Below, piece after piece: positions 8,424-58,559 of a stretch of DNA of 64,000 bases (position 1 is its first letter; every line of letters begins with the position of its first letter). The translations under genes and the position numbers were made by a program. The stretch spans positions 1 through 64,000 of the forward strand of contig JADZEM010000219.1 in the NCBI GenBank assembly GCA_020850535.1. The letters run 5' to 3'. Source of the DNA: Chloroflexota bacterium. GTDB taxonomy: Bacteria; Chloroflexota; UBA6077; JACCZL01. The notes beneath the pieces were generated by a model. The model ran no database searches, was not told the DNA's origin, and saw only the letters and a program-made list of their open reading frames with translations.

Positions 8424-8453
8424 GCACGACGCGCCCATCGTGCAATCGCCCTG
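8424..8453 (+). mobile_element. MITE-like repeat, copy G (right-end remnant)
   Basis: Only the right extremity remains: GCACGACGCGCCC followed by the terminal repeat ATCGTGCAATCGCCCTG. It matches the right ends of copies A, B and C and lies in the spacer between two convergent genes. Confidence 0.65.
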
Positions 8454-16393: not shown

Positions 16394-16563
16394 GCGGTCG
16401 GGGACTGAAGTCCCCGCCTACACGCATGCAGTCGCTGCGCGACGGCCGCCGGGAACGGCCGGCACTGGTGCGACTGGCGCGTCGCGCAGCGACGGCAGGA
16501 TGGTAGGCGGGGCTTTCAAGCCCCGACGAGGCCACACGACCCGCCCATCATGCAATCGCCCGG
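16394..16563 (+). mobile_element. MITE-like repeat, copy B (left terminus missing)
   Basis: Begins at GCGGTCGGGGACTGAAG, 5 bp after the HxlR stop, and runs through both internal hairpins (GGGACTGAAGTCCC near 16400 and GGGGCTTTCAAGCCCC near 16509-16524) and the GTCGCTGCGCGAC repeats to the right terminal repeat ATCATGCAATCGCCCGG. About 45 bp of the left end are absent, presumably lost or replaced by the gene end. Confidence 0.8.
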
Positions 16564-29824: not shown

Positions 29825-29857
29825 GCGCACGCTCCTCGTGATGTGGAGTGGGTGCGC
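29825..29857 (-). promoter_or_regulatory. Hairpin hiding the ribosome-binding site
   Basis: On the minus strand GCGCAC (29857-29852) pairs with GTGCGC (29830-29825), and CTCC (29848-29845) pairs with GGAG (29835-29832), which is part of the GAGGAG ribosome site. It lies between the riboswitch and the ATG, so ligand state could control translation. Seen directly as complementarity; the switching itself is inference. Confidence 0.65.
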
Positions 29858-29859
29858 TT

Positions 29860-30110
29860 CCTTCACTGGGCCTACGGGGTTAGCTGTCGGGTTCGGATCG
29901 GAAGCGTCGAGATCCTACGCGCCGGCGAGGCACGATTCACCCCAGGTCAAGACCTTGACGCGCGCATCAGGGGCTGATGCGCATCATCCACGCCGGCCGC
30001 GTTGCTCGGGCCAGTGCGGATTCGGGTCCCCCGCCCTGCCGCCCCTCGGGGCTGGCAAGCTCGGCCGGGTCGTTCTGGGAACTCGCTCCTTTCACATCCT
30101 CGGGTCGCAG
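29860..30110 (-). promoter_or_regulatory. Cyclic di-AMP riboswitch (ydaO/yuaA type)
   Basis: Read on the minus strand, the conserved blocks occur in the right order: GGGGGACCCGAA (about 30034-30022), GGGGTGAATC (about 29943-29934), GTAGGATC (about 29918-29911), then CCGAACCCGACAGCTAACC (about 29896-29878) and GTAGGC (29873-29868). These are the invariant parts of the ydaO aptamer, in particular the CGAACCCGnCAGCTAAC segment. A variable hairpin arm (GATGCGCATCAGCCCCTGATGCGCG region) lies between the first two blocks, as in the family. Boundaries are approximate. It precedes the 82-residue protein gene. In known cases, high c-di-AMP turns expression off. Confidence 0.88.
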
Positions 30111-40013: not shown

Positions 40014-40080
40014 CGGCCAGCGCTCGTCACGAATCGGCATCTCAAGGGGCCGTCTTCGTAGCGTCGGAGCCAGCACGGCG

Positions 40081-40196
40081 GCCGGGAACAGCCGTCGTCC
40101 GGTCAGTCCGGGGCGTCGCGAGCGACTGCAGGATGGTAGGCGGGGCTTTCAAGCCCCGACGACGCTGCGCGACCCGCCCAACGTGCAATCGCCCTG
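40081..40196 (+). mobile_element. MITE-like repeat, copy C (right half)
   Basis: The right half of the family: a diverged CGTCGCGAGCGACTGCAGG, the hairpin GGGGCTTTCAAGCCCC (40142-40157) and the right terminal repeat AACGTGCAATCGCCCTG ending at 40196. The left half is missing or too diverged to align. Confidence 0.7.
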
Positions 40197-43253: not shown

Positions 43254-43436
43254 CTACTCGCGCCAGAAGTCGTCGCTCTCCAGGTACGGCCAGAACGGCC
43301 GGTCCTGCTGCTGAGCTGGATCGGCGGAAGATGCTGCCTCGTCGTCAGCTGCAGGGCGCTCGCCGTCGCTGCGCGCTGACTGGCGTGCAGCCGCCCGGAG
43401 CCACTGCTCGATGCTCTGGATCGTCGCGTCATGCAT
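43254..43436 (-). CDS. Possible small protein upstream of SDR
   Basis: A 60-residue frame, MHDATIQSIEQWLRAAARQS followed by an acidic Ala/Asp/Glu-rich middle and RPFWPYLESDDFWRE. GAGG lies 6 bp before this ATG. The frame could begin at 43508 instead. It ends 35 bp before the SDR start on the same strand. It is protein-like, with aromatic residues at the C-terminus, but unsupported by family similarity. Confidence 0.45.
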   Translation of the reverse strand: MHDATIQSIEQWLRAAARQSARSDGERPAADDEAASSADPAQQQDRPFWPYLESDDFWRE

Positions 43437-43540
43437 GGCTGCCTCGCCGCCTGACCACAGTCCACGGTCACCAGCAAAGTCCCAGTCTCGACCATTGTAC
43501 GCCGCCATCTCTGGCGAGGCTGCACGCCACGCTCCATCAT

Positions 43541-43757
43541 CAGGGCGATTGCATGTTGATGTCGTCGTGCCGCCGCGTCGGGGCTTGAAAGCCCCGCCTA
43601 CCATCCTGCAGTCGCTGCGCGACGCCCCGGTCTCACCAGACGACGCCGTTCCCGACGGCCGTCGCGCAGCGACGGCGTGACTGTAGGCGGGGACTTCAGT
43701 CCCCGACCGCCCGTTCCATGATGCTCCGGGGACACCAATGAACATGCAATCGCCCTG
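43541..43757 (-). mobile_element. MITE-like repeat, copy D (complete, reverse orientation)
   Basis: A complete 217-bp unit. CAGGGCGATTGCATGTT (43541-43557) and its exact reverse complement (43741-43757) form the ends. Inside are GGGGCTTGAAAGCCCC (43578-43593), GTCGCTGCGCGACG (about 43612-43625), CGTCGCGCAGCGACG (about 43663-43677) and GGGGACTTCAGTCCCC (43689-43704). No open frame of note. The flanking 10 bp on each side do not match each other. It lies just before the aldo/keto reductase gene. Confidence 0.9.
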
Positions 43758-43851
43758 CACGTGCGTGTCTGGTACTGGCGCGCGCTGCCGTCTCTGGGCG
43801 ACGATGACCGCGTACACCCCCGGACGCACGCACGGAAAGGACACCAACACG

Positions 43852-44733
43852 GTGAGCATGTCCAGCACCTCGCCGCGCATCACCCTGAACGACGGCTCGA
43901 CCATCCCCCAGATCGGGTTCGGCACGCTGAACGTGCCGCCAGACCGCAGCCCCACCCCGGAGAACACCCGGAAGACGGCCGAGGTCGTCAGGCTGGCCCT
44001 CGAGCTCGGGTACCGGCACGTCGACACGGCCCAGAGCTACGGCAACGAGCGCGGCGTGGGCGAGGCCATCGCCGCCGCTGGCATCCCGCGCGCAGAGCTG
44101 TACGTCACCAGCAAGCTCGGCAACGGCAACCACCGGCCGGACGACGTGCGCCGCTCGTTTGACGAGACGATGGCGAAGCTCAAGCTGGAGCGGCTCGACC
44201 TCTTCTTGATCCACTGGCCGCTGCCGACGCTCTACGACGGCGACTTCGTCTCGACCTGGAAGGCGATGGTCGGGCTGCTCGCGGACGGCCGGCTCACCAG
44301 CGTCGGCGTGTCGAACTTCCAGCCCAGCCACCTCGACCGCATCGTCGGCGAGACGGGGGCCGTGCCGGCCGTGAACCAGATCGAGGTGCACCCGTACTTC
44401 ACCAACGTCGCGGCCCGCGCGGCGTCCGCCCGGCACGGTGTGGCGGTCGAAGCCTGGAGTCCGCTCGGCCAGGGCGTGCTGCTGGACGATGGGGCGATTG
44501 GCCGGATCGCGGCGGCCCACGGGAAGACAGTCGCCCAGGTCGCGCTGCGCTGGCACGTCCAGCACGGCCACATCATCTTCCCGAAGTCCGCGCACCGCGA
44601 GCGGATGCAGGAGAACCTGGCGGTCTTCGACTTCGAGCTGTCGGCCGAGGAGATGGCGACGCTCGACGGGCTGGACCGGGGTGAGCGCGGGCGCACCGGA
44701 CCGAACCCGGACACGTTCGCGCCGCGCCTCTGA
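43852..44733 (+). CDS. Aldo/keto reductase
   Basis: A 293-residue NADPH-dependent TIM-barrel oxidoreductase. The catalytic tetrad is visible: Asp and Tyr in HVDTAQSYGNE (about 57 and 62), Lys in VTSKLGNGN (about 88) and His in LIHWPLP (about 120). The cofactor-binding IIFPKSAHRERMQENL is typical, with Lys and Arg that favour NADPH. I chose the GTG at 43852, 9-10 bp after AAGGA; an ATG at 43858 is close behind, and the longer frame from 43738 starts inside MITE copy D. It reduces aldehydes or ketones in the cytoplasm; substrate unknown. Confidence 0.9.
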   Translation: MSMSSTSPRITLNDGSTIPQIGFGTLNVPPDRSPTPENTRKTAEVVRLALELGYRHVDTAQSYGNERGVGEAIAAAGIPRAELYVTSKLGNGNHRPDDVRRSFDETMAKLKLERLDLFLIHWPLPTLYDGDFVSTWKAMVGLLADGRLTSVGVSNFQPSHLDRIVGETGAVPAVNQIEVHPYFTNVAARAASARHGVAVEAWSPLGQGVLLDDGAIGRIAAAHGKTVAQVALRWHVQHGHIIFPKSAHRERMQENLAVFDFELSAEEMATLDGLDRGERGRTGPNPDTFAPRL

Positions 44734-44876
44734 CCCGCGAGTCTGGCGCTCGGTCACCCTGCACGCATGGGTTCGTCATCTCGGCGACAGCAGCGCACAA
44801 GCATACCTCACCCTATCATCGCGCCCCCATGCGGCAGGCGCAGGGCAAGCGTCGCGGGGAACGAGCGCAACATACC

Positions 44877-44997
44877 CGTCATCCCGACCGTAGCGAGGAA
44901 CGAGCGGAGTGGAAGGGATCTTCCTCAGATCCGTTGCCCAGCCGACCGTGGAAGATCCCTCGACTGCGTTCGCACGCTCACGTCGCTCGGGATGACG
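44877..44997. repeat. Palindromic intergenic repeat (GTCATCCCGA family)
   Basis: Ends CGTCATCCCGA (44877-44887) and TCGGGATGACG (44987-44997) are exact reverse complements over 121 bp. The inside has GAAGGGATCTTCC and GGAAGATCCCTC arms. It is related in style to 22179-22352 and 6112-6147. The rest of the 44734-45169 gap shows no gene; a weaker related arm (GCTCGGGCTGACGA) follows at about 45019-45032. Confidence 0.75.
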
Positions 44998-45169
44998 GTG
45001 ACGGGAGCAGGTCACTCCGCTCGGGCTGACGAATGTGCCGTTGGCTTCCGCGTGGCCGAGTGCTGGATCGCACTATCCGTAAGCAGCGCACGGTCGTGTC
45101 CTCCGCCCAGCAGAGCGAGACCGGCCAGGGACCAGTCTCCACGCTACACAGCGATCGCGCCAGCCGGGC

Positions 45170-48100
45170 CTACCAGCCGCCAGACCCGCCCGAACCGACG
45201 AACGTCGGCCAGGAGCCGCAGTCATCCGTCACCGTGAAGCGGGCCATCGCTGCGCCGGCTGCCGTCCGCTGCACGACGAACGTCGTCTGGGTCGTGCCGT
45301 TCGGGTAGGTCACCGTGTACGGGCCGGCCCCGGCCGGCTGCCCGGGGATCTCGTAGGCGGCGCGCGTGGCCTGCTGGAACTGGATCGACTTCAGCGTGTT
45401 CGTCGCGAAGCCCGGGTGGCTGCTGGTCGAGACCGTCACCTGAAGCCGCCCCGTTCCGACCACAGCCGTTGCCATATTCACCCGAGGCCGAGGCGCGCAG
45501 GCGCTGCTCGGTGGCGGCGTCGGCGTAGTGGTCGGCCCGAGCGTCGCCGTGTAGACCACGTCTGTCACGCCAACGGTCACGTTCTGCTGCTGCGCGCCGC
45601 CGTGCCCCCAGCTCACGAACTGCTCGCCGCTGCCGGCCGTCACCCCGATGGTGTGCGTGGAGCCGGCAACCGTCGTCGTGCTGAACGGCGCGGTGTGGGT
45701 AGCGCTGTCGTAGAGGACTGCCGCGCCGGGCGGCAGCGTGTTGATGGTGACCTGGACCGTCTGTGGGTTCAGTTGCCGCGTGACGGTGGTGGTCAGGCCG
45801 CCGTTGTCCGTCGCCGTCAGCCGCACCTCGAAGAAGCTGCCGTCACCGTGGTCCGGCACGGTGAACTGGGCCGTCGCGCCGTTCAGCGTCACGAACGGGT
45901 GATCGTGGCAGGCCGCCCCGAAGCCCGGGCAGTGCTTGAGGATCACATCCCAGCGCAGGCCGCTTGTGGGGATCGTCCCGTCTTGCACGTCGGTGGCCGA
46001 GCCTGACAGCTGGATCACGTCGCCCACCTTGAACTGCTGGCTCACCGTGGGCGAGGTGATCGTCGGCGCCGGCGGCGCGTTCGGGATGCGCGGAGCCCAG
46101 GTCAGCCGCATCTCGGCGGCGCAGCAGTCATCCCAGTATTCGGCCATGACGGTGTGCTGCCCGGCCGTCATCGTCTTCGTGCCCACGACATTGTTGGCCG
46201 CCCCGCTGCCCCAGTCATCGACGATCTGCTCGCCGTCGATCCAGACGCGCGCGCCATCGTCGCTGCGAGCCGTGAAGTCGTAGACGCCGTCGCTGAAGGT
46301 GAACCGCCCGATCCACCGGACCGAGAAATGGTCGTCCCCGAAGCCGGCCGTCGGCGGGCCGCCGCCCCAATCGTGATTGATGGTCGCCTCGCACGCCTGG
46401 TACGAGGGCGCGCCCGCGAGCGTCTCGTTCTGGTAGTACTCGGCGCGGAACTGGCCGTCCGGGCACGAGAGCGGCGTGTACGAGCCGGCAAAGCGGATGC
46501 GCCGCAGCTCGCCCGGGCCGATGGCGAGGTACCAGAGCGATCCGTCCGAGGCCATCTCCAGCTGGACCGGGCCGCCCAGGTCCGTCGCGAAGACGTTCGG
46601 CGCGCCCTCCAACTGGTTGCTGGCATTGATGCGGACGCTGTTGATCCAGCCGCGCGCGTAGTCCAGGTAGAAGAGAGCGTTCTGGTAGGTTGGCGGGAAG
46701 ACGTTCGCGGTGTAGAACGTGCCGGCCAGCGCAGCAGCCTGCCAGCCGTCATGGTTCCACTCCAGAAGCGGCGCCTTCACAGCGCTCGGCCCCTGGCTGT
46801 AGAGCGCCGTGCAGACCGGAAACCCCTGATAGCCGGCCTGGACCTGCGAACCTTCGTAGCAGGGCCAGCCGGCGTTTGCGCCGGCCGGGATGACGTCGAT
46901 CTCCTCCCGCTCGGACCAGCCGACATCGCCGACAAACGGCATGTTCGTGCCCGGCTTCAGCACGATCCGGAACGGGTTGCGAAACCCCTTCGCCCACAGC
47001 TTCGAGTTCGTGTGGCCCGCGTTCCCGTTCCACCAGGGGTTCGAGCTGATGCCCTGGCCGGTATCCGTCACCCGCAGGATCTTGCCGGCCAGGCTGTCGC
47101 TGTCCTGGGCGCGCAAGGCCAGCGCGTCCACCACCCCGAAGTTCGCGGCGTCGCCCGTCGAGACGAAGAGGTAGCCGTTCGAGTCGAAGCGCAGCGAGCC
47201 GCCGTCGTGGGAGATGTCGTCGGCGGGGAGGCAGTCGGACGGGCCGGCCGGGCAGCCGCTCCCGGACACCGACCCGAGGATGACCTGCGCCGACGCCGGG
47301 TTCGCCGTGTTGCCGGCCAGCGTGTAGCGTACGACCCGGTTGGTCTTGGGGCCGGCCGGATCGGCGGCATTGTGCTCGTAGGTGTAGTACAGGTAGAAGT
47401 AGCCGTTCGAGCCGAACCCCGGGTGCAGGGCCAGCCCGAGCAGGCCACGGTCGTGGTAGCTGTTGACGCTTGAGCGGAGGTCGAGGACCGGGGTCGTGGC
47501 CAGCACGCCGTTCTCGACCAGCCGGACCAGCCCCTCCTTCTCCAGCACCAGCACCCGGTTACTGGTGGGCAGGAAGGCGAAGCCGGTCGGGAAGTTCAGG
47601 CCGCTGGCCATCGTCTCGTCGGCGAAGCCCGTGAGGACGGTGCCCGCCGCCGCGATGCCCACCCGCCCTGCCGCTGTCCGCGGGGCTGGGAGCGGGCCAC
47701 CCCAGACGCAGCCGGTGCCGTCCTGGCGGGCTTTGGCCTCGGCAGCGGCCATCGCGGCGGCCTCGGGGCCGATGCCGGTGGTGCGGGCCAGCCCGGCCTG
47801 GAGCATCGCCACGGCCACGGACTGGTTCGCCACCGTCTGGACGACGTAGAGCCGTCGCTTGCGGGCGTCGAACAGGTTGGCCGGATCGTCCCGGAGGATG
47901 ACGCCACGCCCGATCAGCGCCTGCAGCTGGGACCGGGCGGCCGTCCCGCACTCCGTCCCGAACGGCGGCGCGACGATCCCGAGGACGCCTGCGTAGACGC
48001 GCCGACCGTCGATGGTGACCTCGAAGGTGTCACCGTCGATGACGCGCACAAAGCCACGCGGCTGGAACGGCCCCGAACGTGGTTCGGGCGCACCACCCGG

Positions 48101-48226
48101 CATGAGCGATTGGTCGAGCGCGCTCACGGTGCCCAGCGTGAGCAACAGGATCAACAGGCCGCCCAGTATGGCGAACGGCGCGGCCAGTATGCGGCTCCGA
48201 CGCAGCCCCGACCTCCCCTGATCCAC
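45170..48226 (-). CDS. Secreted SNase-like / PQQ sugar dehydrogenase-like / PA14 fusion protein
   Basis: A protein of up to 1018 residues. A signal anchor (ILAAPFAILGGLLILLLTLG) is followed by a staphylococcal-nuclease-like domain (about 57-175: FVRVIDGDTFEVTIDGRRV through ARKRRLYVV). Next is a glucose/sorbosone dehydrogenase six-blade propeller (about 198-585: GLLGLALHPGF, SHDGGSLRFDSNGYLFVSTG, and GFRNPFRI), which binds PQQ and Ca in relatives. A PA14 domain (about 592-715: FRAEYYQNETL, DDGARVWIDGEQIVDDW) may bind sugars, and Ig-like beta domains follow. In the nuclease part the PE after GI is PP and the first Arg is lost, so nuclease activity is doubtful. The frame starts GTG at 48226, but AGGGGAGG lies inside it, before a CTG at 48205, which may be the real start. 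Confidence 0.85.
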   Translation of the reverse strand: MDQGRSGLRRSRILAAPFAILGGLLILLLTLGTVSALDQSLMPGGAPEPRSGPFQPRGFVRVIDGDTFEVTIDGRRVYAGVLGIVAPPFGTECGTAARSQLQALIGRGVILRDDPANLFDARKRRLYVVQTVANQSVAVAMLQAGLARTTGIGPEAAAMAAAEAKARQDGTGCVWGGPLPAPRTAAGRVGIAAAGTVLTGFADETMASGLNFPTGFAFLPTSNRVLVLEKEGLVRLVENGVLATTPVLDLRSSVNSYHDRGLLGLALHPGFGSNGYFYLYYTYEHNAADPAGPKTNRVVRYTLAGNTANPASAQVILGSVSGSGCPAGPSDCLPADDISHDGGSLRFDSNGYLFVSTGDAANFGVVDALALRAQDSDSLAGKILRVTDTGQGISSNPWWNGNAGHTNSKLWAKGFRNPFRIVLKPGTNMPFVGDVGWSEREEIDVIPAGANAGWPCYEGSQVQAGYQGFPVCTALYSQGPSAVKAPLLEWNHDGWQAAALAGTFYTANVFPPTYQNALFYLDYARGWINSVRINASNQLEGAPNVFATDLGGPVQLEMASDGSLWYLAIGPGELRRIRFAGSYTPLSCPDGQFRAEYYQNETLAGAPSYQACEATINHDWGGGPPTAGFGDDHFSVRWIGRFTFSDGVYDFTARSDDGARVWIDGEQIVDDWGSGAANNVVGTKTMTAGQHTVMAEYWDDCCAAEMRLTWAPRIPNAPPAPTITSPTVSQQFKVGDVIQLSGSATDVQDGTIPTSGLRWDVILKHCPGFGAACHDHPFVTLNGATAQFTVPDHGDGSFFEVRLTATDNGGLTTTVTRQLNPQTVQVTINTLPPGAAVLYDSATHTAPFSTTTVAGSTHTIGVTAGSGEQFVSWGHGGAQQQNVTVGVTDVVYTATLGPTTTPTPPPSSACAPRPRVNMATAVVGTGRLQVTVSTSSHPGFATNTLKSIQFQQATRAAYEIPGQPAGAGPYTVTYPNGTTQTTFVVQRTAAGAAMARFTVTDDCGSWPTFVGSGGSGGW

Positions 48227-48450
48227 ACGATCCGAGCGCCGCGGTGCACCCGCTCAGATCAGCAAACGAGCAACGAAGACCTCGACACGTCTGCCCCAAC
48301 TGTCGCGTCAACGCATCGGCAGTGTACCACAGTCAGGTGATCAACGTAAGGCGCTACCGCTCACAGCGTAGTCACAGTAGTCACGGTGCGGTCACCCGCC
48401 ATTCACCAGCCTGAGGATGCCGATACCGGTACTCCCCTGGCGTCACCCCT
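48227..48450. other. Spacer upstream of the PQQ fusion gene
   Basis: No gene seen. Short GTCAC repeats (around 48371-48403) could be a regulator site. The 10-bp sequence CGTCACCCCT at 48441-48450 is the left copy of the direct repeat flanking the tandem MITE pair. Confidence 0.4.
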
Positions 48451-48668
48451 CAGGACGATTGCATGTTCATTGGTGTCCCCGAAGCATCATGGAACGGGCG
48501 GTCGGGGGTTGAAAGCCCCGCCTACAGTCATTCCGTCGCTGCGCGACGGACACCGGGCACGGACAGGGACTGGTGAGACTACAGCGTCGCGCAGCGACTG
48601 CAGGACGGTAGGCGGGGCTTTCAAGCCCCGACGCGGCGGCACGACGAGGCCATCATGCAATCGCTCCG
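48451..48668 (+). mobile_element. MITE-like repeat, copy E1
   Basis: A complete unit of about 218 bp with left end CAGGACGATTGCATGTT and a slightly decayed right end ATCATGCAATCGCTCCG. Internal hairpins and GTCGCTGCGCGACG repeats are as in the other copies. It is separated from copy E2 by 10 bp (48669-48678) and is nearly identical to it across the centre. Confidence 0.9.
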
Positions 48669-48678
48669 GTTCGTGACT

Positions 48679-48896
48679 CAGGGCGATTGCATGTTCGCTG
48701 GTGTTCCCGAAGCATCATGGAAGGGGCGGTCGGGGGTTGAAACCCCCGCTTACAGTCACGCCGTCGCTGCGCGACGGACACCGGGCACGGACAGGGACTG
48801 GTGAGACTACAGCGTCGCGCAGCGACTGCAGGATCGTAGGCGGGGCTTTCAAGCCCCGACGCCGCCGCACGACGACATCAACATGCAATCGCCCTG
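48679..48896 (+). mobile_element. MITE-like repeat, copy E2
   Basis: A complete 218-bp unit in the same orientation as E1. Ends are CAGGGCGATTGCATGTT (48679-48695) and AACATGCAATCGCCCTG (48880-48896). Directly after it comes CGTCACCCCT (48897-48906), an exact copy of the 10 bp before E1, so the pair behaves as one insertion with a target duplication. It lies about 90 bp before the kynureninase start. Confidence 0.92.
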
Positions 48897-48989
48897 CGTC
48901 ACCCCTGGCGGCCGTTGCCAGTCCACCCGCTCCTGTGGGAGCATGCCTGCACTCCCGACAAGTTCAAGGGCGGCGCGAGGTGGTGCGTG

Positions 48990-50276
48990 ATGGGACGATT
49001 CGACGACGCGCGGGCAGCGGCCCGCGCGCAGGACGCCGCCGACGAGCTGGCCTCCTTCAGGGGTCGGTTCGCCTGCCGGCCGGGCACGGTCTACCTGGAC
49101 GGTAACTCGCTCGGGCTGATCTCGGCAGAGGCCGAGGCGGCGGTGCTGGCGGCCCTGGCGGACTGGAAGCAGTACGGCATCGACGGCTGGCTCGGCGGCG
49201 AGCGGCCATGGTTCACCCTCGGGGAGGAGCTTGGCGCACGGCAGGCCCGGCTCGTCGGGGCGCTGCCACACGAGGTCGTGGTGACCGGCTCCACCACCGT
49301 CAACCTGCACGCGCTGGTGGCGACCTTCTACGGCGCATCGCCGCAACGGACGCGGATCGTCGCCAACACGCTGGACTTCCCGTCAGACCTGTACACACTG
49401 GCCTCGCAGATCCGCCTGCGCGGCCTGGACCCGGCCGAGCACCTGACACTGGTTCCCTCGCCGGACGGCCGCACGATCCGCGAGGACGACCTGATCGCGG
49501 CCCTGGACGAGCGCACGGCGCTGTTGGTGATCCCCTCGGTGCTGTACCGGAGCGGTCAGCTGCTGGACATCGCCCGGCTGACGGCGGCGGCCCACGAGCG
49601 TGGGGTGCTCGTCGGCGTGGACTGCTCGCACTCGGCGGGGGCGGTCCCGCACACGCTCCATGACTGGGGCGTGGACTGGGCGGTCTGGTGCTCGTACAAG
49701 TACCTGAACGGCGGCCCGGGCGCGGTGGCCGCGCTCTACGTCCACGAGCGGCATCATGGGACAGCCCCCGGGTTGGTCGGCTGGTGGGGCTCGGACAAGG
49801 CTCGCCAGTTCGACATGGCCCAGGAGTTCACGCCAGCGTCGCACGCCGGCGCGTGGCAGATCGGGACGCCGCCGGTCCTGGGGGCGGCAGCGCTCTACGG
49901 GGCGCTCGGGGTCGTTGAGGAGGCCGGCCTGTCGCACATCCGGGCGAAGTCGCTGGCGCTGACAGGCTACCTGATGGAGTTGGCGCGCGAGCACCTGTCA
50001 GACCCGCCGTATGGCTTCACCATCGGCACCCCGAGCGAGTCCGAACGGCGGGGCGGGCACGTGGCACTGGAGCACCCGCGGGCGGTGCAGTTGTGCAAGG
50101 CGTTGAAGGTGCGCGGGTTCGTCCCCGACTTCCGCCCCCCGAACGTGATCCGGCTGGCGCCCATCGCCCTCTACACGAGCTTTGACGAGGTCTGGCAGGC
50201 GGTGGACGCGCTGCGGCAGATCGTGGAACGGGGCGAGCATCAGCAGCTCGCGGCGGCCCGCGAGCCCGTCGCCTGA
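48990..50276 (+). CDS. kynU: Kynureninase
   Basis: A 428-residue PLP enzyme of aminotransferase fold type I that cleaves kynurenine (or 3-hydroxykynurenine) to anthranilate and alanine. The start of the fold reads VYLDGNSLGLISAEAEA, the PLP-binding Lys is in WCSYKYLNGGPGAVAALYV (about 237), and SHSAGAVPHTL supplies cofactor contacts. The C-terminus with HVALEHPRAVQLCKAL and PDFRPPNVIRLAPIALY is characteristic. The ATG at 48990 follows GAGG. No other tryptophan-degradation gene is near; its upstream region is occupied by two MITE copies. Confidence 0.92.
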   Translation: MGRFDDARAAARAQDAADELASFRGRFACRPGTVYLDGNSLGLISAEAEAAVLAALADWKQYGIDGWLGGERPWFTLGEELGARQARLVGALPHEVVVTGSTTVNLHALVATFYGASPQRTRIVANTLDFPSDLYTLASQIRLRGLDPAEHLTLVPSPDGRTIREDDLIAALDERTALLVIPSVLYRSGQLLDIARLTAAAHERGVLVGVDCSHSAGAVPHTLHDWGVDWAVWCSYKYLNGGPGAVAALYVHERHHGTAPGLVGWWGSDKARQFDMAQEFTPASHAGAWQIGTPPVLGAAALYGALGVVEEAGLSHIRAKSLALTGYLMELAREHLSDPPYGFTIGTPSESERRGGHVALEHPRAVQLCKALKVRGFVPDFRPPNVIRLAPIALYTSFDEVWQAVDALRQIVERGEHQQLAAAREPVA

Positions 50277-58342: not shown

Positions 58343-58559
58343 CAGAGCAATGGCATGATGTCGACATTGTGCTGCCGCGTCGGGGCTTGAAAGCCCCGCC
58401 TACCATCGTGCTGTCGCTTCGCGACGCCCCTGGCGTATCAGTCCCTGGCGTTCCCGGCGTCCGTCGCGCAGCGACGACGTGACTGTAGGCGGGAACTCCA
58501 GGCCCCGACCGCTCGTTTGATGGCGTTACGGGAACGCAAGCGACCGTGCAATCGTCCTG
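58343..58559 (-). mobile_element. MITE-like repeat, copy F (complete, older)
   Basis: A 217-bp copy in the same orientation as copy D. Its ends have diverged: CAGAGCAATGGCATGAT on the left and ACCGTGCAATCGTCCTG on the right. The hairpin GGGGCTTGAAAGCCCC (58382-58397) is intact, but the right one has changed to GGGAACTCCAGGCCCC. The greater number of differences suggests an older insertion. It lies in the 5' region of hsp20. Confidence 0.85.

Follow-up and report, generated by a model that had tools for sequence, protein, structure and literature searches.

An abundant MITE family with ISAs1-type ends, REP-like hairpins and tandem arrays in a Chloroflexota genome

Relation to Described Systems

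The Correia/NEMIS, RUP, Nezha and MITEPye1 elements are short, non-coding and intergenic, have inverted ends and fold strongly. The element described here, from the genome of a Chloroflexota bacterium (GCA_020850535.1), resembles them in these respects, but differs in its ISAs1-type ends, its approximately 430 units, and its head-to-tail arrays with recurrent 10-bp spacers. With insertion sequences of the ISAs1 family it shares the end CAGGGCRATYGCAT and 10-bp target duplications; unlike them, it has no transposase gene, and its interior is unrelated beyond 17-26 bp. A partial survey of the literature, covering portions of PMC4133298, PMC3542288, PMC11578231 and PMC5756416 among others, yielded no description of an ISAs1-derived MITE. 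The TIME-COMP composites, formed by Tn3-derived MITEs, also have target duplications around a MITE pair, as presented in the available sections of PMC4133298 and PMC13367494; here, however, the payload amounts to only 10 bp, both copies point in the same direction as direct repeats, and the pair is only a candidate moving unit. Finally, the GTAG-type REPs and REP dimers (available part of PMC3733652) have the same GTAG tag, hairpin and inverted pairing as the interior of our element. According to the same part of that paper, GTAG repeats occur in Chloroflexi, and the GTAG-15 dimers located within long palindromes of A. variabilis are a close precedent. In our case, in contrast, no free REPs were present in the sample and no RAYT was found, and the hairpins lie inside an ISAs1-type MITE.

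The family is very probably a MITE family of a known kind with a link to ISAs1, and its significance lies in its great abundance combined with a tie to one particular family of transposases. Its tandem arrays are unusual, and it has also captured REP-like hairpins.

Copies in the Analyzed Window

The window is the whole stretch of 64,000 nucleotides that was analyzed (positions 1-64,000, forward strand, of contig JADZEM010000219.1). The original prediction, made from the letters of this stretch, described a MITE-like family of about 217 bp with 17-bp terminal inverted repeats (TIRs), represented there by eight copies. The following features were identified, H1 and H2 being the two inner hairpins:

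43541-43757, + strand: complete 217-bp MITE with perfect 17-bp TIRs, without target duplication
43541-43557, + strand: its left TIR, CAGGGCGATTGCATGTT, matching the 17-mer end
43741-43757, - strand: its right TIR, matching the 17-mer end
43577-43601, - strand: H1, GTAG-tagged REP-like hairpin, reading GTAGGCGGGGCTTTCAAGCCCCGAC on the - strand
43683-43707, + strand: H2, GTAG-tagged REP-like hairpin, reading GTAGGCGGGGACTTCAGTCCCCGAC
43609-43625, no strand: left central arm (element positions 69-85), pairing with the right arm
43659-43673, no strand: right central arm (element positions 119-133), pairing with the left arm
48441-48450, + strand: target duplication CGTCACCCCT, left flank of the dimer 48451-48896
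48451-48668, - strand: tandem-dimer unit, 218 bp, inner end mutated (CGGAGCGATTGCATGAT)
48669-48678, - strand: lineage B spacer of 10 bp, reading AGTCACGAAC in the orientation of the element, common to arrays elsewhere
48679-48896, - strand: tandem-dimer unit, 218 bp, ends intact
48897-48906, + strand: target duplication CGTCACCCCT, right flank of the dimer 48451-48896
58343-58559, + strand: complete, diverged copy (80%), left end CAGAGC, without target duplication
9-141, - strand: partial copy at the contig start (BLAST with the 217-bp copy)
16394-16561, - strand: partial copy, query positions 3-170 (BLAST with the 217-bp copy)
40075-40196, - strand: partial copy, query positions 1-122 (BLAST with the 217-bp copy)
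8424-8453, - strand: 30-bp end fragment, the weakest match (80%, E 0.04; BLAST with the 217-bp copy)

The modal unit length of the family is 217 bp. The 17-mer CAGGGCGATTGCATGTT has 11 matches in the window at up to three mismatches, against 0.11 expected from shuffled sequences, and the claim that the ends are shared beyond chance is thus borne out; perfect 17-bp ends on both sides are limited to the copies at 43541 and 48679. Four complete and three clear partial copies of the eight originally counted were recovered, while the one near position 8437 is reduced to the 30-bp match. As a single strand, the copy at 43541-43757 folds with -130.8 kcal/mol (z -9.4).

Assignment of the element to an RNA family was rejected, the sole RNA family match in the window being an unrelated c-di-AMP riboswitch (RF00379, 56 bits; 29855-30076, - strand).

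Abundance and Distribution

In the whole genome (7.65 Mb) 684 ends (347 + 337) were found at up to two mismatches, the reversed-pattern control giving none, and the hairpin pattern GTAGGCGGGG-N8-CCCCGAC occurred 667 times, its control once. This genome-wide count completes the check that had been proposed for the 17-bp ends and agrees with the description of the element as nested, nearly palindromic, non-coding and abundant. The hairpin pattern was absent from all 100 relatives searched (present in 1 of 101 genomes), the nearest of which belongs to another genus. A search with the full element in 61 genomes gave matches in the source genome, plus three short ones of 24-59 bases. The family is therefore present in several hundred copies and confined to the source genome among the relatives searched. 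The 17-mer also occurs, exactly and once in each, in two viral contigs of IMG/VR (L253 and L254).

A sample of 690,782 bp contained 176 of these hairpins; the units in it numbered 113 when partial copies are counted. As the sampled regions had been picked at known hits, only the ratio of these counts, and not their density, was used for scaling, which gives a genome total of about 430 units, or roughly one per 18 kb; the family is as abundant as had been predicted, but the figure of one copy per 8 kb derived from the window exceeds the genome average. Altogether, 80 fetched regions and the window yielded 194 units, 34 of which touch the edge of a region or contig. Many contigs start or stop within MITE arrays (e.g., L225-L232, L197, and L203), so the length and number of arrays are underestimated. 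Divergence among 130 units (of 135 full ones, only those of 205-230 bp being used) had a minimum of 1.8% and a median of 12.9%, without any identical pair; contigs would break at identical copies, however, and the assembly may therefore lack the most recent ones.

Target Duplications and Genomic Context

Duplications were sought as 10-bp flanking repeats with up to two mismatches around those arrays whose units are complete and whose flanks are available on either side. They were found in 26 of 39 single copies, 14 of 27 dimers and the only trimer, the chance level being 0.14% as estimated from shuffled flank pairs. The remaining 13 singles and 13 dimers had no duplication at this threshold; among them is the copy at 43541-43757, whose left and right 10-bp flanks agree at none of the 10 positions. 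The 42 near-exact duplications were all distinct, with a G+C content of 0.70, like that of the window. An origin of the copies as pieces of a larger duplicated segment, which would have refuted the original prediction, does not apply to single copies, given their unrelated flanks and target duplications; it applies in part to dimers, which have a 444-bp arrangement in common. That prediction made no mention of 10-bp duplications, of a connection with ISAs1 or of recurring spacers.

None of 78 arrays lay within genes predicted by our own codon-usage script, whose output is rough (coding fraction 0.77). With the same gene set, the 60 arrays having two neighbor genes were located between co-directional (30), divergent (18), or convergent (12) genes, compared with 304, 83, and 88, respectively, for all gene pairs. 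The suggestion that the hairpins act as intrinsic terminators had to be abandoned: a hairpin followed by a T run was found at no site of the window region 43300-49100, and arrays showed no excess between convergent genes.

Link to ISAs1 Transposons

The ends of the MITE (CAGGGCGATTGCAT) and its 10-bp duplication match the ISAs1 family. A genome of the same family as the source (G001) contains a 1256-bp element bounded on one side by the exact 17-mer and on the other by a version of it with one mismatch, and the gene inside it encodes an ISAs1 transposase (NCBIfam, E 5e-119); this copy lacks a 10-bp duplication, and the C-terminal part of its gene is out of frame. When named genomes were scanned, 80 ISAs1 relatives emerged, the best (62%) from a Thermomicrobiales MAG; the best transposase matches also make a Chloroflexota host probable. 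Of these relatives, 49 were examined. Inverted ends were present in 40 of them and, in 23, target duplications as well, scored as 10 bp in 22 cases and as 9 bp with a mismatch in one. All 46 ends of these 23 elements start with CAGGG. Both the end sequence and the duplication length of the MITE thus fit ISAs1. ISAs1 elements of Janthinobacterium sp. CG3 (L137, L138, L146) have ends that agree with bases 1-15 of the 17-bp MITE end.

In the source genome itself, PF13808 was detected at two places, both broken, and no intact ISAs1 transposase was found in the incomplete assembly. The remnants, one split by about 5.5 kb and frameshifted (C136) and the other truncated (C187), begin with CAGGGGGATTGCATAAC and CAGGGCGATTGTATAGT. 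Hence the expected transposase gene bordered by the same ends does exist in G001, but in the element's own genome only as two broken remnants, and movement may have ceased or may rely on an unassembled copy. By eye, ORFs within the split of C136 (L056 8582-15870) resemble the reverse transcriptase of a group II intron and a further transposase. PF01609 was found at six places, of which only one has a convincing MITE-like end, namely the broken ISAs1 gene of C136 together with its distant fragment. A pattern search for a 374-404-bp element bounded by perfect ends gave nothing. The MITE resembles the fetched ISAs1 elements over 17-26 bp only and thus did not arise by simple internal deletion from any of those seen.

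Judging from these ends and duplications, the element appears to be mobilized in trans by an ISAs1-family transposase. Such a DDE transposase would bind the ends, move the element and produce the 10-bp target duplication. After insertion, many copies would turn into head-to-tail dimers and trimers, whose 10-bp spacers, equal in length to the target duplication, would derive from a few founders.

Tandem Arrays and Their Spacers

Spacer length was 10 in 53 of 75 adjacent pairs. We kept 58 head-to-tail junctions, having dropped 15 zero-length spacers, which stem mostly from units shorter than 217 bp, one spurious 14-kb spacer and one 21-base opposite-strand pair. At up to three mismatches, the spacer ATGCTGCTAC (lineage A) occupies 34 of these junctions and AGTCACGAAC (lineage B) 11; a further five spacers were each seen at two junctions, and the last three junctions are unassigned. 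Genome-wide, the end-N10-end pattern was found at 39 places, and the lineage A spacer adjoins an end at no fewer than 63 places (29 + 34; control 0).

The units facing a spacer differ in their inner ends. The right-hand unit of lineage A has CAGTGC as its left end in 31 of 34 junctions, and that of lineage B has CGGAGC or CGGGGC there in nine of 11, while the facing inner end begins with CAGGGC in 32 of 34 and 11 of 11, respectively. These mutations, different in the two lineages, fall on bases that are invariant in the 46 ISAs1 ends. Lineage C (AGGGCAGCGC or the same ending in T) has CAGGAC in four of the six junctions listed; in minor spacer lineages the inner ends are often intact.

Two dimers (L054 2031-2464 and L076 4034-4484) have in common a 17-bp spacer, TAGTGGCAGGGGCGAGT, unlike the 10-bp lineages; their inner ends start with CAGGGC, and their outer duplications are exact.

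Possible Routes of Array Spread

Compared with singles, right-hand units of lineage A differ at positions 4-22 only, and left-hand units show a weak difference near the right end. Linkage of common variants more than 20 bp apart is near the shuffled level in array units (0.008-0.024 vs. 0.014), in contrast to singles (0.105-0.248 vs. 0.023 shuffled), and linkage to the spacer extends for about 20 bp only. Free recombination among all copies is the wrong description, as singles keep their subfamily linkage, most strongly those verified by target duplications; the two ends of singles are coupled (0.22-0.31, p 0.003-0.007). In the 25 dimers with two units of 205-230 bp, the two ends within one unit are not coupled, but the outer left region of one unit is coupled to the outer right region of the other (r2 0.109 vs. 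0.047), with p 0.025 in one of four tests, which would fail a strict correction.

One way to read these data is that a dimer moves as one composite transposon via its outer ends, the mutated inner end holding the pair together. A composite unit would explain the 10-bp duplications that flank whole dimers in 14 of 27 cases, and it agrees with the presence of identical spacers at different sites and with the inner ends described above, where a unit mutated within its first six bases, at invariant positions, faces an end that is nearly always intact. We regard this reading as possible but would sooner doubt than adopt it: the dimers do not appear to have a whole haplotype in common, the distinctive part of lineage A being restricted to positions 4-22 of the right-hand units and weak in the left-hand ones, and a defective left end could easily be present in a founder by chance, since 12 of 50 tabulated singles lack the left CAGGGC, although some of these are missed array members. 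Alternatively, a copy together with one flanking 10-bp duplication, either as a small circle or as a conversion tract, could recombine into resident singles, a reading to which we give a chance only a little short of even. The same nearly balanced judgment applies to its outcome, in which each hit would leave a head-to-tail dimer in place of a single, with the 10-bp spacer of the founder between its units. This accounts for the prevailing spacer length, the head-to-tail order and the restriction of spacer linkage to nearby bases; moreover, outermost ends coupled as in a single copy, together with uncoupled ends within a unit, are what recombination into a resident single predicts. A single at L076 13700-13916, with a near-duplication of its own (two mismatches), has the mutated end of lineage A without the spacer. 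Circle integration into resident MITESen1 copies has been speculated on (available part of PMC13367494). On the other hand, the coupling carries the statistical weakness stated above, no circle was seen, and no founder site with a spacer equal to its flank was found, the sole match being the neighboring unit of a trimer.

The usual final k-mers of assemblies are longer than 21-60 bp. This bears on the third reading, namely that assembly mosaics account in part for the structure of the arrays and their missing linkage. Mosaics could contribute, as many contigs end within arrays (the edge units mentioned above); linkage equilibrium is seen in array units and not in singles, and a mis-inserted loop would also give coupled outer ends. 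Nevertheless, linkage is lost within 21-60 bp, i.e., below such k-mers, intact duplications flank about half of the dimers, and no two of the 130 units are identical, which makes this reading unlikely. Taking transposition and recombination into resident copies together, we tentatively propose, with rather more doubt than confidence, two routes of spread: ISAs1-type transposition and a transposase-free one, in which a circle or conversion tract of a copy plus 10 bp recombines into resident copies. If both operate, copies whose own end is dead would keep spreading, the spacers would barcode the founder site, and array units would form a freely recombining population. With the 10-bp spacers as natural barcodes, the origin and spread of bacterial tandem MITE arrays can be tested by long reads.

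Inner Hairpins and Short Relatives

Among the 130 units, the 58 sites of H1 and the two arms contain no common variant (minor allele in at least 13 copies). H2 has common variants at four of its 25 sites, all in two co-changing stem pairs, whereas 50 of the remaining 134 sites are variable in this sense. Private changes are about equally frequent everywhere (0.002-0.006 per site and copy). The variable pairs of H2 are Watson-Crick in 96-98% of copies vs. 59-60% after shuffling; they represent essentially two alleles, and hence few events. This pattern fits a constraint on hairpins and arms in the copies that spread, rather than an equal one in every copy after insertion. With the constraint limited to copies that multiplied, hairpins and arms probably aid the spread of the element itself and not the host. 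Covariation between the arms of the long palindrome was considered and rejected: shuffling leaves the complementarity of mirror columns undiminished at nearly every variable position, and selection for pairing of a full-length hairpin is thus not supported.

The two GTAG-tagged hairpins in inverted order, with their covarying stem pairs, could also suggest a REP/REPIN family that depends on a tyrosine transposase for its movement. We consider this highly improbable, as no Y1 transposase is present (no PF01797 matches in the genome), no matching hairpin lies outside the elements in the 690,782 bases sampled, and the target duplications are located outside the TIRs and not at the hairpins. REP/RAYT mobilization as the cause of the present insertions was rejected on the lack of PF01797 in the assembled genome and of free REPs among the sampled bases. 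That conserved, covarying hairpins occur here without a RAYT suggests that selection can act on REP-like hairpins carried as cargo by a different element.

To call the hairpins required for transposition would be too strong, as copies of 108 bp with one hairpin and of 86 bp with none have duplications. The 108-bp relatives have no arms, and three of the ten 108-bp rows show duplications at up to one mismatch; the duplication of the 86-bp copy is exact. The 108-bp relative may be an older form that grew into the 217-bp element. Such relatives (L040 4857, L048 5853 and 16825, L226 424, L207 188, and others) have the same ends and often a different right half.
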